DNA from: a virus
Direction: 5' to 3' (one strand)
IMG/VR virus record: IMGVR_UViG_3300037847_004068
Span: 1 to 35,930 of that record
Length of the DNA: 35,930 nt
The translations under genes and the position numbers were made by a program. Under the pieces are notes generated by a model. That model made no database searches. It saw only the letters and a list, made by a program, of their open reading frames with translations, and was not told the origin of the DNA. This document shows positions 4,522 through 12,801 of this stretch, one piece after another; the first letter of the stretch is position 1, and every line of letters starts with the position of its first letter.

Positions 4522-7500
4522 TTATTTAGGTAAAGTTCCTTTGCGTTTTGGTTTACCAAACCCTTGTTTTTTACTTGAGCCTTTTTTCTTTTTTGATTTA
4601 GAATCTTCTTCTTCTATATCTAAGTTCCATTTGCTCCAACCGCTAAACATAAGTATTCTATTCATAATAGAGTGCTCGTTATTAAGGGCTTCTCTTACAT
4701 TTTGAGTTTTCCTGTAAAGCTGTGCAGTTGGTATATTCGTAACACCCTGTATATAAGAAGCGGTAGCAGACCATTGAGGATTATCTATATCAAAAGTCTC
4801 CATTTCTTCTATTTCTTTTTTATTGTAGTTTAATGTTTTTTCTGCATTAACTATTTGCCTTGCTTTAATACCAAGAGGAGGCGAAACATTAAGCATCTCC
4901 ATAAGAACAGCGCTCTCATCTTTAGCGTGCGCAGGTTTTTCACGCTGCTCAAGTTGTTTAATTACCATGTTTTTTAATGTAGCAGCAACAGCTCCATAAA
5001 CTCCAGTACCTCTAAGCACAGAGTCGATACTTCCATTAATCATGCGGCCTTTCTTCTTCAATAGCTTTTCATCGTCTTCATCATCATCAAACATTGTTGC
5101 AAATAAAGCGCTTTGTAAAGCGTAGAATATAAGGTTTTGTACCGCTAGATAATAAACTACTCTTGAAACATTAGACAAGTCGTTTTGCAACTGTGTTGCG
5201 TTAGGATTTGTTTTTCTTCTATTTTTAAGATCTAAAAACGCTTTCTTACCAACCCTATTAAACTGAGATGTTACGTTTTGGAAAGCTAGTATAAATTTAC
5301 CTAATGGAGAAGCCTGCTGCTGTGAAACCATGTCTGGTCTTGCAGACTGCTGTGTTGTTTGCGTTACATCTAAAAAGTCCTCCCAAGCTTTGTTTTCAGC
5401 CTCTTTTTTGTTTAAACCTTTTTTAATGTATAGGTTAACTCTATTTCTATAGAACGTAGCGCCACCAGTTGCTATAGCCATACTATCCGCAATTTGCGTA
5501 GGTGTAAAACCAACTCTAAGTAGCTCTTTAACAGCAGCTCTAAAAGGATTTCTTGAACCCTGTATTTTAGAAGCTAGCTCTGCACCGTTTACGTCTGTTT
5601 GTATACCACCTCTTCTTTGTTTTAAATCAGCAGAATTAAATATATAAGCCCAGTCAGTCCAATATTGTTTTTGATTTGCAAAAGCTTTAGCGGCTGCCAA
5701 CATGTTGTTGTCTGCAAAGTTTATATAGTTAACAATAGACATTTGCTGCAACACGGCTGATCTCATATTAAAAAACATAACACTACCAACAGCACCATTA
5801 ATAAAGTTAACAAACTCATTAACTATTGCATTAGTACCACTTGGTCTGTTTCTACCTGTTTTAATTCTATAGAGCATATCTTCTATAGCATCGCGCATGC
5901 TCTTACCGTACGCAGCTTCTATCTTATTAAGATTTTCTTTTGAAAATATAATATCAGCGTTGTTGATAAACTCTTCAAAGTATTGCGCTCTACCCACTCT
6001 ACCAGTGGCTGCTTCAAGATCAGTTCTTATGTCGTTAACCTCCCAAACTTCTGATGGTGATACATAATCTTCTAGTTTAGATATTCTATTTAACACCTCA
6101 GCATAAGCTTGTAGCTGTTGATCATTTTTAACTAAATCAACTAAACCTTGTTGATCTGTTTTACTTAAGCCAGGTATAGTGTGACCATGTTTGTCCCACA
6201 AGTAAACTCTTATAGCGTCTTGGAAAGTAAAATCACCTTGAGGTACTTCTTTATTAAATTTTTTCTTTACATCTGGAAAACTTTTGTTAAGCTTTTTATA
6301 GTCATTAGCAATAGCTTGACGAGCTGTGTCTAACTCTCTGTTAGCTCTATTAAGAGGTCTTAATAAAGATTTTTCAAAAAAGTCTCTATGAGCGTTTCCT
6401 TTTTCTCCTTTACCCATAAAGTTATAAAGTAGCCCTACAAAATCTTCATGAGACGGTGGTACAAAAAATCTAAACTTACCTTTATCCTTACCTCTTTTAC
6501 GGGCTTTTGTGTCAGAAAATCTTTTTGCTGCGTCTATGCCTGAAACCTCTTCAAGTATTTTGTTAAAGTCTACATTCATGGACTCGCTAAACTTTACTTT
6601 AGCTTGCTGTACTTTAGATTTAACGTCAAACTGATTAAGCATGTTTTTTACAGCCTTTACGTTTTGTATAGCGTCATCAGCAAAGTAAAAATCATTATAA
6701 CCTTCAGCAACTTTTCCAGCAATCCAATCAGCTTTTGCTTGAGCAGTAGAGTTACCTAAACCAGTAATATTTTCAATAGGTATTACTAATCCATTTGCAT
6801 CTAAAAATTCTTTAATAGCAGCCTGTGATTCTGGAGCTCTTGCCGTAAGTATAAACATATTTTTTGTTCCAAACTTACCTGCTAGCTTTTGAGCCTTAGC
6901 AAATAAGGGTGCTGTTTTGCCTTCAACTACTTTGTTAAACTCTGAAAAATCAAATGTATAACCTTCAGCTAAAAGGTCTGCTCCTTGCTTAGCAAACTCT
7001 TCTGCGTTTAACTTACCAGTAACGCCGTCAGGAGTTGTGTATAAAACGTTAGACCTAGTAGTTGCTAACGTGTCGTCAAAATCTAGAACTGTAATGCCTT
7101 TAGGCTTTCTAGGTATTCTACTATTACGTATAGCTTTTATTAGCGACTGATTACCAGTGCTCATGCTTTCGCTAAACTTAATGTTTGCTACATTTTCGCC
7201 ATATGTTTTTGTTTTAGCACTTGGATCTAAGCTTTCAATAGCGTATAAATCCGGATGCCCAAATGTAGACATGTTATAGTAACGACTTGTAGAGCTTTCG
7301 CCAGGTCTATATCCTACAGGCATAACATGTACTAAGCCCATGTTTTCAAGTATCTTGTCCATAGTAGCTGGTATTACAGCTACGGTATACTCTTTAAATA
7401 AGGCGTCTAGATCAACAGCACCATCGTTCATATAAGCATTTGTAATTTGCATAACCATGTAGTTAGTAGGTATCATATGCTCATAACGTAGCTCTCCAGT

Positions 7501-10500
7501 ATATTTCTTACCAGCTTTATCTTTATATATGTAAGCAAGATTTGCTGCACGCTTAAGTGGAGACTGCATGTTACTGCCCATACTCATCATAAGCATTGCA
7601 AAATCTTCTTTGGTAAGCGCTCCTTTTTTAATTTGATCTTTATAATGTTGCGCAATATCTTTAACAAACTCTTCAGAAATTTTAGCTTGTTTTTTTCTAG
7701 CTTTATAGTTTTTGTCTGACATAGCAGACTTAGAAGTTTCAGACAAAAGAGATGTATCTATTTTATTACCATCTATGTTTTGAAACTTAGATAGACTACC
7801 CTTTTTAGTAGTTTTTATTGTTTCGTCGCTAAAAACTTTTTTTATTACGTTGTCAACAAAATCTTTTTTGCTGTCAAACACCTGATATCTTTGAGATCCA
7901 AAAGACTCACCTTCTTTTAATATTACTTCTACAACAACCCCTTCTTTATTAACAGTAAAATTACCTCTACTAATTTTCGAGCTAGTCGCGTACATACCGC
8001 TAGCGTGAACAAGCATCATAAACGCTTTTTCTTTACCGTACTTGTTTATTAGTTTTTTAGCTACAGCTACTACTTCAGCTCTTGCTCTATTTATATTGTC
8101 AATATTATCGAAGCTTTTTGATAACTGTATAAACTTACCAGCGTCGTCTTTTAAATCTAAATACTGCGCTAGATTCATTTCAAGCTCAGCCGCCTTTAGA
8201 TTATCATATAAGTATTCGTTTAAAGTTTGCTCAGGCTTTGTTTTTACATTAACATGTCTTTCGTTTATGTCGCCATATCTACTAGCTAACTTAAATATTT
8301 CTTTACCTAATTTTGTTGTTTTGCCAGTTGTAAATATATCTCCGTAAATATTTTTAACAGCGTCCATAACCTGCTCTTGATCTCTAACATTTACGATTTT
8401 TAAGTTCGCACTTAGTAGTGGTAGATTTTCGTAAAAATTAGCTAGCTCAGCGTCAGTTAAACCTTTTACAACAGCACTAAGTTTAACAGTATCAAAGCTT
8501 AGTTTTTCACTTTTTTGGCTTTCTCTAGCTTTATTATATAACCTAAGCTCAGCTTTTAAAACCTCGCTTAAGTCGTTAGATTTCTCTGATATTACTTTAT
8601 CAATAGCTTCTGCTGTTAAATCTGCAGAAATAAACTCAGCTAATCCTCTTTGTCTAGCTAATAGTGTAGTGTAACCACCTTCAGTAAAATACTTAGTCCA
8701 CTTAGCCTTTGTAGTCGTTATGTTAAATATACCTTTTCTATAATAACTATCTTTTTTAAGGCCTGGTTTGTCAGACTTTCTAGTAACCCTTTGCTCCTCA
8801 CCAATTTTTTCTATATCAAATAACTGATTGTACTTTTTCTTTATAGTAGTAACGTCGAGTCTATTTATATAGTCTTGATAGTTAAGAGCATGATGCGCTT
8901 TGTATTCTTCACTTACAACTACTTTACCACCTACGTTTCTAATAGCACCCATTTGAGCTTTAACCGCTTTAGCAAAGTCTTTTGATACAAGCTTTTCTAT
9001 TTGTTCAATTAAATTTTCTGGATTTTGCTCTATTAAATCATTTATTTTATTTTCAATTTGACTAGATATAACGTCTTTGTTGTCAAGAGTAATATCTTTT
9101 AGTGACTTAATTTCTCTAGCTTTTTTAACTCTTTTAGTATCAGCTACAACCTCTTGTTTCGGCGCAGCTATTGTTTCAGCCACAGTTCTGCCGCTATCGT
9201 CTTTAGCATCGATCCTTGTCTCTTGTTTTTTCCTTGCTCCCTCTACCGCTAGCTCTTTAGCTGCAACTAGCTTACCAAAGCCAACGTTAGCCATTAAAAA
9301 CTCACCAATAGTTACACCCTCTGTACCGCCTACTTTTCTTTCAGCTTTCGGATCATAGTTTATTAAACGATCGGTTACAGCTTCAATAGTCTTTTGAGTC
9401 TTTTCAGGACTCATGTTTAAGCTTCTTATGTAATTGTTAATAGCACCACCAGGTAGCATAGTGTTATAGATTTTATCAAAACCTTTTCTTCCACTAGCTT
9501 GAAACTCTTCTTTAGTATATTCCTTGCCTTCTGCCTCTATGTTTCGCTTAATCTCCTGCTCTATAGCATTAACAGCTTCAACAGCTTTAGATCTATTCTT
9601 AACAGCAACAGACTCTTTTACTTCTCTTTCTTTATCGTCAGCGTCTACACGGCCAGTAGGTGTTCTACCCGTGTATCTTTCGCCAGTGCCGTTAAAGTCG
9701 TTATACTTTTGTAAAAACTTTAAAGTATTTTCAGCGTTAAAATTACTGAAGTCTATATCACCTACTTTTTGACTTGTACCTTTTCTAAAAATATCTTGAA
9801 GCAACTCACCCATAGCTGCTAAAGTACCACCGTTTTCTATATTAATATCTTTAGTCTGCACGTAATTTAACGCGTCTGAAAGCGATGTAAAAAACTCTTC
9901 TTTACCTATCTTTGTGTCTAATCCCGTACCTTGCATTTCGTATACCGCTAGCTTTTCAAATAAACGCGCCTTTACTTCTTGCATTTTAGGATCGTTGCTT
10001 TCCCGTATTTCCTTCAACGCGCCTTCAATAAAAGAGTCTAGCTCTTGCGCTTCCATGCCATCAAGTACAAAGTGCAATATCTCGTGGTGTGCTACGTTAC
10101 TAGCAGACCAATCACCTTCTCTTATGTTTTTCCTAACGTTATCGTTAACTAAAATCGCAATATCTCCTAAATTAGCTCCGTTAATATCGCCATTTAACAA
10201 TCTTTTAAGATGCTCTTCCCCTAGTCTATCTTGAAGTTTATTTTTCTTTATATAATTTTCAGCTTCAGTTACAGTTTCAAAAGTGACAACTTTCTTATCT
10301 TTAAAGATACCTTCGTTTTTGTTATTAACCCAATTAGCAATTCCAACACCAGTAGTTAAATAGTCTTGAATTAAAACTTTATATTTATTTTCGTCTTTAA
10401 GCTCTTGTAGTTTGTCTTTTTTTCTTTTTACCTGTATCTCTTCGTCTGTAGTGTATTTGCCGTAGTTTTCTTCACCAATCTCTTTTTTAGTTTTTTTGAT

Positions 10501-12801
10501 ATTTTCTTCTAAAGCATTAATTTCTTCCTCAAGTTTTGTTTGCTCTACAAGGTTGTCAATAACTTCACCTTTTTCTTCGCCGTCTAAGTTTTTAAGTTTC
10601 CTGTTACTAACAAGTTGTTCTGCGGCCTCTAGCTCTCCAAACAAATCGTTTCTTGTTCTTTTATCTATTTCACCAGCTTTAAACAGCGCATCTATCTCTT
10701 CTTTCTTTTTATTTATAATACCTCTTACAGACTCAGGATCTCTTATACCTTGAACGTGAGATATAGTTTCTTGTACACTAGTGGTAATAACATTACCACC
10801 TGTAATTAAAAAAGGAGTTGTTAAAAAAGCTTGACCAGCAGCCTCGCTTATTCTTTTTATATTAAATGAAGTGTCTTTAAAATCTCCAGTAGCAATACCA
10901 ACATTTGTGATGCTTGACACCTCTTGCAAACTTTCTGTTATAGACTCCATAAGAGAAGCTTGTGTTAACTCTTTACCAGCTGATTTCCAACCTTGGCTAA
11001 GAAATTTCTTAAAATTACCGTCAAGCAACTTCCTTAACATGTCTTTTGGTAAAAATTTTGTTCCAGCTTTAAGCACAAAAGCGTTACCAATAAGGTCTAG
11101 ACCGGCAGTTTGAAAGCCAGTTCTTACAGCAGCATCGGTATTAGCCTCCCCTTTGTTAACGATATCTAGCATAGCATCTGCTTTTTCTTGATCGTTCAAC
11201 GCTGACCATTTCTGCATTTTCGCTTCATCACTATCACCAGGAAACATTTTGTCTCTGGCTATTTCCGATACAATCTCAAAGTACGCTCCGCCACCTTCTT
11301 GCATATACGTTGAGCCACCCATCGTAAGTATAGCGCCTAACATTTGGACACCTTGTGTTCCAATCATACGCCAATATTCGTCAAGAGTTAAGTCAGGATC
11401 AAGTACGCTTTCACCAAAAATAGTAGGGTGAATTACATCATTTAAAGATTTTTGATAATCCATCGATGTAATAATATTATCTCTAATATCTTCTTCGTAA
11501 AATTTAATTCTATTCTCTAAAACTTGTCTTCTTTCGCCAACCGTATATTTTCCTTTTACTCCAGAAGTTTTTTCCCAGTTTTTGTTAAAAGCAGGCATAT
11601 TAAGATCTGGTCGTTCTTTGCTATCAGGTAAATACGTAATTACTTCTCCACTAAACTTAAGTATCTCATCATCAGCTCTACCTTCTAGACTTTTTAGTTC
11701 TTTTGCGGCATCTTCAGCTAAAGTGCTAACTTTTAACGCTTGCGCATTGTAGTACGATTGCGGTATTTGATAAATACCAGTTATATAAGCACCTCTAAGC
11801 GTCTTATTTGCTATAGGAAGGTCTTTTATTATTGAGCCTACAAAACCTTGAGAAAGAACTGCATCTTCTTTTTCTACTCTAACTTTCTCTTTTATAGCAC
11901 CGCCAAACCTAGTGCCAACACCTTGGTGAATTGAGTTTATAGTTTTAGCAAGATCTTCGTCTACAAGTAATCTATTATACACTTCTTCACTAAAAAGTTC
12001 ATTAAACTCTTTCATAAAGTTTTCTTGACCTTCTTGTGTAGAAATATCGTGTTTAGATTTTAAGCTTTCTGCCAAAGACGTCAAAAACTCGGTATCTTCA
12101 CCTAGTGATTCACTAAGAGATACTGCTGCTTTGTCAACAGCCTCACTATCAGCTTTTTGTAATATACGATTGGTGTGATCAAGTAGTTCGTCAGAAGTTA
12201 GTTCTGCTATAGTTTTTGTTGATCCGTCTTCATTTTTAAAAGATATCTCGCTGGTGTCAGCTAAACTCCATCCGTTAGAGTATTCCGCAGAGTTTATAGA
12301 AGGGTCATCATCAGCGTGCGCTTTAATGAAGTCATTCATTTGATTTGCCATCTTATCACTTGCTCCAGTGGCAAATCCAAAAATATCAGCGTTGACGCTA
12401 AATGTTTCTTCTGCTCCATCAGGAGCTATTACTTTAACGTAGTCAAGACCAGGTACAGCCTCTTCAAACTCAAAGCCTAAACCACTAAATCTGTTTTTCA
12501 ACATTTCTACGGCCTTACCTTCACCTCGTCCTGTAATGTCACTTGTAACTTGAGGTAATGTAACTTCGCCAGGTGTTGTAGTAGCTACAGGCTTATTGTC
12601 TTCAGCAACTTTAGAACCTAATCCAAGTAAAGAAGAAAAGTCTTCAACATTTCCTCCGTAGCCTGCTGCTGCAGAGTTTTTGTGAGCTAAATTTAACGCT
12701 TCTTGATTGGTAGATATAAGTTCAACGAACTGTTCTCTAGTACCACCATAGCCATTAGCTTTAGCGTCTTCAAACGCTTGATTTAAAGCTTCTTCGTTCA
12801 T
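4522..12801 (-). CDS. Giant polyvalent internal/ejected virion protein (zincin motif, HAD phosphatase domain)
   Basis: 2759 residues. Two GYGG repeats open the protein (about 6-60). A Gly-rich, moderately hydrophobic region lies near 470-700, then a charged coiled coil near 700-800. HEILH at 906-910, in the context SNVAHHEILHFVLDGM, is a gluzincin-type metalloprotease motif; a downstream EEFFTSLSDAL may supply the third ligand. A complete HAD set follows: DFDDTLA (D1907, D1909), T1986 in FILTAR, K2023 and DD 2042-2043. The HAD module is bracketed by FSESM at 1876-1880 and 2071-2075. The C-terminal third ends in a hydrophobic segment near 2545-2570 and a Lys-rich tail. Multi-enzyme giants of this kind are described as phage polyvalent proteins, thought to be packaged and delivered into the host. 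Position after internal-protein genes supports that. Substrates are unknown. Confidence 0.85.
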   Translation of the reverse strand: MNEEALNQAFEDAKANGYGGTREQFVELISTNQEALNLAHKNSAAAGYGGNVEDFSSLLGLGSKVAEDNKPVATTTPGEVTLPQVTSDITGRGEGKAVEMLKNRFSGLGFEFEEAVPGLDYVKVIAPDGAEETFSVNADIFGFATGASDKMANQMNDFIKAHADDDPSINSAEYSNGWSLADTSEISFKNEDGSTKTIAELTSDELLDHTNRILQKADSEAVDKAAVSLSESLGEDTEFLTSLAESLKSKHDISTQEGQENFMKEFNELFSEEVYNRLLVDEDLAKTINSIHQGVGTRFGGAIKEKVRVEKEDAVLSQGFVGSIIKDLPIANKTLRGAYITGIYQIPQSYYNAQALKVSTLAEDAAKELKSLEGRADDEILKFSGEVITYLPDSKERPDLNMPAFNKNWEKTSGVKGKYTVGERRQVLENRIKFYEEDIRDNIITSMDYQKSLNDVIHPTIFGESVLDPDLTLDEYWRMIGTQGVQMLGAILTMGGSTYMQEGGGAYFEIVSEIARDKMFPGDSDEAKMQKWSALNDQEKADAMLDIVNKGEANTDAAVRTGFQTAGLDLIGNAFVLKAGTKFLPKDMLRKLLDGNFKKFLSQGWKSAGKELTQASLMESITESLQEVSSITNVGIATGDFKDTSFNIKRISEAAGQAFLTTPFLITGGNVITTSVQETISHVQGIRDPESVRGIINKKKEEIDALFKAGEIDKRTRNDLFGELEAAEQLVSNRKLKNLDGEEKGEVIDNLVEQTKLEEEINALEENIKKTKKEIGEENYGKYTTDEEIQVKRKKDKLQELKDENKYKVLIQDYLTTGVGIANWVNNKNEGIFKDKKVVTFETVTEAENYIKKNKLQDRLGEEHLKRLLNGDINGANLGDIAILVNDNVRKNIREGDWSASNVAHHEILHFVLDGMEAQELDSFIEGALKEIRESNDPKMQEVKARLFEKLAVYEMQGTGLDTKIGKEEFFTSLSDALNYVQTKDINIENGGTLAAMGELLQDIFRKGTSQKVGDIDFSNFNAENTLKFLQKYNDFNGTGERYTGRTPTGRVDADDKEREVKESVAVKNRSKAVEAVNAIEQEIKRNIEAEGKEYTKEEFQASGRKGFDKIYNTMLPGGAINNYIRSLNMSPEKTQKTIEAVTDRLINYDPKAERKVGGTEGVTIGEFLMANVGFGKLVAAKELAVEGARKKQETRIDAKDDSGRTVAETIAAPKQEVVADTKRVKKAREIKSLKDITLDNKDVISSQIENKINDLIEQNPENLIEQIEKLVSKDFAKAVKAQMGAIRNVGGKVVVSEEYKAHHALNYQDYINRLDVTTIKKKYNQLFDIEKIGEEQRVTRKSDKPGLKKDSYYRKGIFNITTTKAKWTKYFTEGGYTTLLARQRGLAEFISADLTAEAIDKVISEKSNDLSEVLKAELRLYNKARESQKSEKLSFDTVKLSAVVKGLTDAELANFYENLPLLSANLKIVNVRDQEQVMDAVKNIYGDIFTTGKTTKLGKEIFKLASRYGDINERHVNVKTKPEQTLNEYLYDNLKAAELEMNLAQYLDLKDDAGKFIQLSKSFDNIDNINRARAEVVAVAKKLINKYGKEKAFMMLVHASGMYATSSKISRGNFTVNKEGVVVEVILKEGESFGSQRYQVFDSKKDFVDNVIKKVFSDETIKTTKKGSLSKFQNIDGNKIDTSLLSETSKSAMSDKNYKARKKQAKISEEFVKDIAQHYKDQIKKGALTKEDFAMLMMSMGSNMQSPLKRAANLAYIYKDKAGKKYTGELRYEHMIPTNYMVMQITNAYMNDGAVDLDALFKEYTVAVIPATMDKILENMGLVHVMPVGYRPGESSTSRYYNMSTFGHPDLYAIESLDPSAKTKTYGENVANIKFSESMSTGNQSLIKAIRNSRIPRKPKGITVLDFDDTLATTRSNVLYTTPDGVTGKLNAEEFAKQGADLLAEGYTFDFSEFNKVVEGKTAPLFAKAQKLAGKFGTKNMFILTARAPESQAAIKEFLDANGLVIPIENITGLGNSTAQAKADWIAGKVAEGYNDFYFADDAIQNVKAVKNMLNQFDVKSKVQQAKVKFSESMNVDFNKILEEVSGIDAAKRFSDTKARKRGKDKGKFRFFVPPSHEDFVGLLYNFMGKGEKGNAHRDFFEKSLLRPLNRANRELDTARQAIANDYKKLNKSFPDVKKKFNKEVPQGDFTFQDAIRVYLWDKHGHTIPGLSKTDQQGLVDLVKNDQQLQAYAEVLNRISKLEDYVSPSEVWEVNDIRTDLEAATGRVGRAQYFEEFINNADIIFSKENLNKIEAAYGKSMRDAIEDMLYRIKTGRNRPSGTNAIVNEFVNFINGAVGSVMFFNMRSAVLQQMSIVNYINFADNNMLAAAKAFANQKQYWTDWAYIFNSADLKQRRGGIQTDVNGAELASKIQGSRNPFRAAVKELLRVGFTPTQIADSMAIATGGATFYRNRVNLYIKKGLNKKEAENKAWEDFLDVTQTTQQSARPDMVSQQQASPLGKFILAFQNVTSQFNRVGKKAFLDLKNRRKTNPNATQLQNDLSNVSRVVYYLAVQNLIFYALQSALFATMFDDDEDDEKLLKKKGRMINGSIDSVLRGTGVYGAVAATLKNMVIKQLEQREKPAHAKDESAVLMEMLNVSPPLGIKARQIVNAEKTLNYNKKEIEEMETFDIDNPQWSATASYIQGVTNIPTAQLYRKTQNVREALNNEHSIMNRILMFSGWSKWNLDIEEEDSKSKKKKGSSKKQGFGKPKRKGTLPK

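Follow-up and report, generated by a model that had tools for sequence, protein, structure and literature searches.

A short peptide signal at the module joints of a mosaic giant phage protein: probable protease cut sites

Organization of the locus

The window analysed, a stretch of 35,930 nt covering positions 1 to 35,930 of the IMG/VR virus record IMGVR_UViG_3300037847_004068, carried the giant ORF and the other features listed in Table 1. Within this ORF the peptide FSESM occurred exactly twice, in the contexts NIKFSESMSTG (upstream) and KVKFSESMNVD (downstream), and the two copies bracketed a HAD module with DFDDT at residue 1907, as an earlier note on this DNA had described. They were encoded by TTT AGC GAA AGC ATG and TTT AGC GAG TCC ATG, respectively, so that E and the second S differ in codon. 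In the AlphaFold2 model, the upstream copy lay in a coil (residues 12-21, block pLDDT 51), and the downstream copy was found in a coil followed by a helix (residues 206-213, blocks pLDDT 79 and 60). Shuffling of the giant protein gave an expectation of 0.31 repeated 6-mers per shuffle and KFSESM was the sole one observed; thus, within a single protein the repeat says little.

Table 1 Features of the giant ORF and of neighbouring ORFs in the window
Feature	Position in window (nt)	Strand	Remarks
Giant ORF, 2759 aa	4522..12801	minus	last large gene of structural block; mosaic polyvalent-type protein
Zincin-like peptidase region, residues 747-1057	9631..10563	minus	HEILH 906-910 at 10072-10086
Probable degenerate third site TVKLS, residues 1438-1442	8476..8490	minus	homology to L005, L011 and L012 stops here
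Upstream FSESM, residues 1876-1880	7162..7176	minus	between variable module and HAD
HAD phosphatase module, about residues 1894-2067	6601..7122	minus	T4 Pnkp 3'-phosphatase-like
Downstream FSESM, residues 2071-2075	6577..6591	minus	between HAD and conserved C-terminal module
Conserved C-terminal module, residues 2069-2759	4525..6597	minus	446 IMG/VR relatives
ORF, 344 aa	3480-4514	minus	next after giant gene; signal-peptide-like start
ORF	1881-2249	minus	signal-peptide-like start
ORF	2-1765	minus	signal-peptide-like start

The portal protein shared 44-53% identity with those in the first 40 of 87 matching phage records, and the nearest portal and capsid relatives were from phages infecting Flavobacteriia. 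None of the window proteins scanned matched a known protease or prohead protease, though for many of them no family was matched at all, and the record possibly covers just part of its genome. ORFs of about 350-370 aa were also located next after the giant gene in several relatives. The two ORFs farthest from the giant gene in Table 1 had no PHROGs match; one of them contained repeated cysteine-bearing GCT...FNY...C units, and the other appeared thioredoxin-like by eye.

Relatives of the giant protein

A viral-contig scan with the whole giant protein yielded 16 relatives, 15 of which were used, and the best 80 of the 446 IMG/VR relatives of the C-terminal module were kept; set A consisted of 84 distinct giant proteins, the window's included. 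The held-out set B comprised 34 more, mostly of other clades, which were added by a scan of genome contigs and two other scans and played no part in defining the motif described below. Sequence searches of the isolated-phage collection, for which the whole protein, a C-terminal module, or the HAD region served as query, detected no relative of the giant protein; likewise, none of three queries made up of cargo or HAD sequence had a match among isolated phages, and the module of the relative L024 matched kinases only. The sole relatives from genome contigs, L097, L098 and L099, came from a single Red Sea MAG of Woesearchaeota, in which their three contigs are probably misbinned viral ones. The C-terminal module received no Pfam assignment.

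HAD phosphatase module

The HAD motifs DFD.T, TAR, K, and DD were invariant in 96 of 96 aligned sequences, which had been picked by DFD[DE]T, the remaining motifs not being selected for. An AlphaFold2 model based on these 96 sequences had a mean pLDDT of 82, with a HAD core of pLDDT 89 or more between two flanking coils, and showed the fold of the Pnkp phosphatase domain. Plain Foldseek placed class C acid phosphatases on top (E 1.4e-3); upon realignment of the 1000 best Foldseek candidates, the 3'-phosphatase of T4 Pnkp led the list (Z 12.2, rmsd 2.5, 127 residues), and below it came other HADs, down to Z 9.1 at rank 50. On this ranking, assignment to the HAD family is firm and the Pnkp type is likely. 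The PHROG polynucleotide-kinase model phrog_415 matched the module weakly (E 0.001). Among ten cargo modules searched against Pfam, one gave a clear assignment, a P-loop kinase of the zeta-toxin/AAA_33 type at residues 1558-1717 of L024 (a protein on the same contig as L011), located inside the HAD module and suggesting a Pnkp-like kinase-phosphatase cargo. Taken together, the fold match to T4 Pnkp, the weak PHROG kinase match, and the kinase of L024 point to a predicted cargo that is probably a nucleic-acid end-repair enzyme.

Zincin-like peptidase region

The HExxH motif and a Glu located 59 residues past its second His (H161, E162, H165 and E224) were invariant in 52 of 52 aligned peptidases; these had been chosen for HExxH, whereas the Glu was not selected for. 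An HExxH with a downstream Glu ligand is zincin-like, although the region had no profile match and no fold match: its model (pLDDT 83) was dominated by long helices, and no zincin appeared among the Foldseek or realigned rows.

Within the family, the zincin profile (A3) matched 81 of 113 proteins. Seemingly more than one kind of HExxH peptidase occupies the same place, and in those outside A3 the residue preceding the last His was mostly G, Q or T. L046 and L091, with five strict junction sites each, had no match to the zincin profile and carried HEVGH or HELQH instead. Three of the 113 proteins were without any HExxH, and one of these, L021, retained FSES at both places. The motif at the C-terminal junction was present in 72 of 81 proteins with the zincin profile versus 21 of 32 without it (p 0.006, uncorrected for relatedness). 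An apparent association of the fourth motif residue with peptidase type, seen in raw counts, was dropped as confounded by relatedness; the upstream sites of L046, which were FSKS or FSRS whatever its peptidase, also count against it.

A recurrent signal at the module junctions

Exact FSESM was rare among the relatives, and what recurred was the position together with the pattern [VI]-K-[FY]-S-[KRE]-[ST]. The second site read mostly [KQN]FS[KE]S-M-N, and the first varied, with forms such as IKYSRD, INFSKS, and IQFSKV. The consensus over 123 distinct context pairs was V/I, K or M, F/Y, S, K/R, S/T, in which F/Y, S, and K/R were fixed by the search pattern; F-S-[KR] was retained while the adjacent letters drifted. 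What is conserved is not the five letters FSESM; [VI]K[FY]S[KR][ST] describes the unit better.

Up to five or six sites were found per protein, the bracketing of HAD being one case. In L011/L024, which had five or six, one pair enclosed an insertion, a module of some 410 aa, that separates HAD from the C-terminal module. In the window protein, BLAST matches to L005, L011, and L012 stopped at residue 1442, the end of the probable degenerate third site, where these relatives read KFSKK, KFSRS, and KYSKN, respectively. At the HAD/C-terminal junction, [FY]S[KREQN] was present in 93 of 113 proteins. No strict site was found upstream of this junction in 42 of the 113, including the window's, whose upstream copy is FSES and hence falls outside the strict pattern. 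The earlier note had named retention of HAD without the motif as an observation that would count against it; at the downstream site this was seen in 8 of 104 HAD-bearing relatives (L072, L075, L085, L092, L096, L098, L099 and L140), the others keeping the motif, which is therefore common and not obligatory. In L098, L099, and L129, FSKS or YSKS was observed inside HAD just past DFDDT, where cutting would destroy the domain.

The motif occurred 117 times upstream of the C-terminal module against 18.2 expected, and 18 times in the other ORFs of the same loci against 14.6 expected, the expectations resting on composition only. Inside the C-terminal module it was absent against 8.4 expected, a zero that spans homologous copies and is thus weaker than the expectation implies. 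On the N-terminal side of the HExxH peptidase, density was as expected by chance (0.11 sites per 1000 aa), and between the peptidase and HAD it was 0.78.

At the upstream sites, serine was encoded by TCN in 51 and by AGY in 31 cases (n = 82), similar to a background of 39% AGY. The TCN and AGY serine blocks are not interchangeable by one substitution. The mixture therefore indicates that selection acts at the protein level, as the earlier note had proposed from the differing codons of the two FSESM copies, and it rules out a DNA-level recombination site for the upstream sites. At the HAD/C-terminal junction, the serine was AGY in 44 of 44 cases, as common descent predicts. Two other ideas were set aside: a preference for AAG in the Lys before F amounted to a modest excess at most (56/84 in motifs versus 686/1530 for K before F/Y elsewhere), and initiation of translation inside the gene, at the FSESM Met, was dropped, most sites being without Met.

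Association with homology breakpoints

Family members were compared by BLAST, and the points at which matches ended were taken as homology breakpoints, with the HAD and C-terminal parts left out. In set A, the density of breakpoints lying no more than 12 aa from [FY]S[KR][STA] was 5.36 times the average (67 sites in 39 of 80 proteins); shifted positions gave 1.01, with a maximum of 2.07, and 0 of 2000 shifts reached 5.36. The held-out set B gave 5.86 times (24 sites in 18 of 34 proteins; 0 of 2000 shifts), and 53 redundancy-reduced clusters gave 6.39 times (30 sites in 21 proteins; 0 of 3000 shifts). BLAST match ends are fuzzy and the shifts preserve positions shared by related proteins; sites in related proteins are not independent, and the redundancy-reduced run meets this kinship in part. 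Among 792 tripeptide classes, [FY]-S-[KR] ranked first in association with breakpoints. Control patterns in the run on sets A and B ranged from 0.26 to 2.56, the nearest, [FY]N[KR][STA], reaching 2.25 in set A (6/2000) and 2.56 in set B (79/2000); LS[KR][STA] had given 2.03 in the first run.

Exchange of the flanking modules was evident when 322 loosely matched sites were clustered by their flanks, which gave 35 recurrent upstream contexts, 11 of them with at least two downstream contexts. The upstream context U1 (21 sites) had 13 different partners downstream, and for the HAD side (D1, 67 sites) there were 24 upstream contexts. Relatives had thus exchanged domains in mosaic fashion, and the peptide stood at domain boundaries where domains swap, as would be expected from the earlier note. 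By these sequence comparisons, the junction signal is roughly [VI]-K-[FY]-S-[KR]-[ST], situated where the modules of a mosaic giant protein meet, and the two FSESM copies are two cases of this family-wide signal, significant once the 117 relatives are included.

Interpretation of the junction signal

The reading that we favour, by a modest degree, is that the signal punctuates interchangeable modules and that its sites are probably protease cut sites releasing cargo. Within the giant phage protein, the short signal [VI]-K-[FY]-S-[KR]-[ST] would separate exchangeable modules arranged in an array, and a protease, most likely the HExxH peptidase of the same chain or its replacements, would cut at the junctions, during virion maturation or once the protein has been injected, and free cargo, for example the Pnkp-like 3'-phosphatase. 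As all modules end in this one signal, they could be exchanged without loss of release. The in-chain zincin-like peptidase is perhaps the cutting protease. A bolder version, in which one peptide both connects all modules and marks the cuts in an injected, plug-and-play polyprotein, having arisen repeatedly at unrelated module ends so that any swapped cargo is released by the preceding peptidase, is tentative, and we would put it at somewhat below an even chance.

Functionless linker scars, that is, inherited remnants of a shared linker travelling with modules in recombination, would also place the motif at breakpoints and would give the uniform AGY serine of the HAD/C-terminal junction by common descent. 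A single inherited linker, however, would retain one codon block, in contrast to the 51 TCN and 31 AGY serines of the upstream sites, and the retention of F-S-[KR] amid drifting flanks also speaks against this explanation, which we consider unlikely. The idea of the earlier note that the peptides are scars of domain insertion thus stood as regards their tie to swapped domains, whereas pure scars leave the mixed serines unexplained. Scar and cleavage site are not exclusive readings, and the companion proposal of the note, cleavage at the FSESM sites with the zincin as protease, is plausible. Also unlikely, to about the same degree, is an uncut docking peptide for a phage or host protein acting in packaging, ejection, or phosphorylation: both location in predicted coil linkers and repeated occurrence in one protein are features of docking peptides, but docking alone predicts neither exact placement at module breakpoints, nor absence from the C-terminal module, nor the jump in density just past the peptidase.

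The junctions might instead be cut by an enzyme of the host or by the product of a phage gene that has escaped notice, the in-chain HExxH domain having another role. The motif is retained in relatives with a different HExxH peptidase (L046 and L091) or with none (L021), and the window may represent a genome fragment; the motif was nevertheless not enriched in other phage ORFs, no known protease was matched by the window proteins scanned (many of which matched nothing), and proteins with the zincin profile more often have the C-terminal junction site, a comparison uncorrected for relatedness, so that we regard this as improbable, slightly more so than scars or docking. A chance repeat within one protein, compatible with the shuffles above, has very little probability in view of the family-wide enrichment and the association with breakpoints, held-out set included. 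Cleavage at the junctions thus appears the best of these readings.

Comparison with known systems

Enzymatic domains in the family include the well supported HAD, the HExxH peptidase, and the P-loop kinase of L024; none of the remaining modules received an assignment. Like the polyvalent proteins of phages and conjugative elements, for which processing by a zincin has been predicted (Iyer et al. 2017; PMC5512222), the window protein is very long, mosaic, and multi-domain, with an HExxH peptidase thought to process it; it differs from them, as they are portrayed in the relevant passages of that paper, by the recurrent junction peptide seen in its family. The whole protein, C-terminal module, and peptidase region had no Pfam match to LPD, MPTase or similar models, so the giant protein appears to work like a polyvalent protein and is not a formal member. 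The peptidase section of the paper and its passages on the topic name no cleavage motif or cut site, and a literature search of limited scope found no description of the junction motif. Thus, processing by an own metallopeptidase had already been proposed for polyvalent proteins in those passages (PMC5512222), and what is added here is a motif that predicts the joints. With such a motif, a single construct suffices to test the self-processing idea, modules can be delimited exactly for cloning or for predicting their structures, and the cargo domains of uncultured phages could be listed.

The likeness to T4 Pnkp consists in the best realigned solved matches of the HAD model and in the P-loop kinase that L024 carries in the same module; the window copy differs in being without a kinase, and its HAD is a cargo inside a giant chain with a predicted activity. 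The cleavage motifs of giant phages (phiKZ-like phages and SPN3US) differ from the junction signal. In the published passages on their head and ejection proteins, virion proteins are cut during head maturation, as is proposed for the window protein, whereas a separate prohead protease is used, of a kind recognised in none of the window proteins scanned.

The gene order of the window, with a giant last structural gene, is the same as in Callevirus (Cellulophaga phage phi40:1) and Elemovirus. Gp101 of phi40:1, in the same gene place, is annotated as a structural/virion protein from MS/MS. In the giant proteins of these genera FSK was not clearly enriched, and neither the C-terminal module nor the peptidase had a profile match there. 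In five syntenic giant proteins of other phages, [FY]S[KR] was found 1 to 3 times against 1.2 to 2.9 expected, without clear enrichment, and that of Panino had 2 strict sites against 0.3 expected; thus, the junction signal appears to be a property of the family of the window protein and not of all such proteins. Among the syntenic proteins, only that of ctfjg026 had a window-like N-terminus, residues 1-64 being common to both (39%, E 5e-7) and the rest different. From the synteny with the MS/MS-detected gp101 and from this common N-terminus, we infer that the window giant protein is located in the virion. The N-terminus of the window protein (residues about 1-64) itself contained two similar stretches, with GYGG in each.
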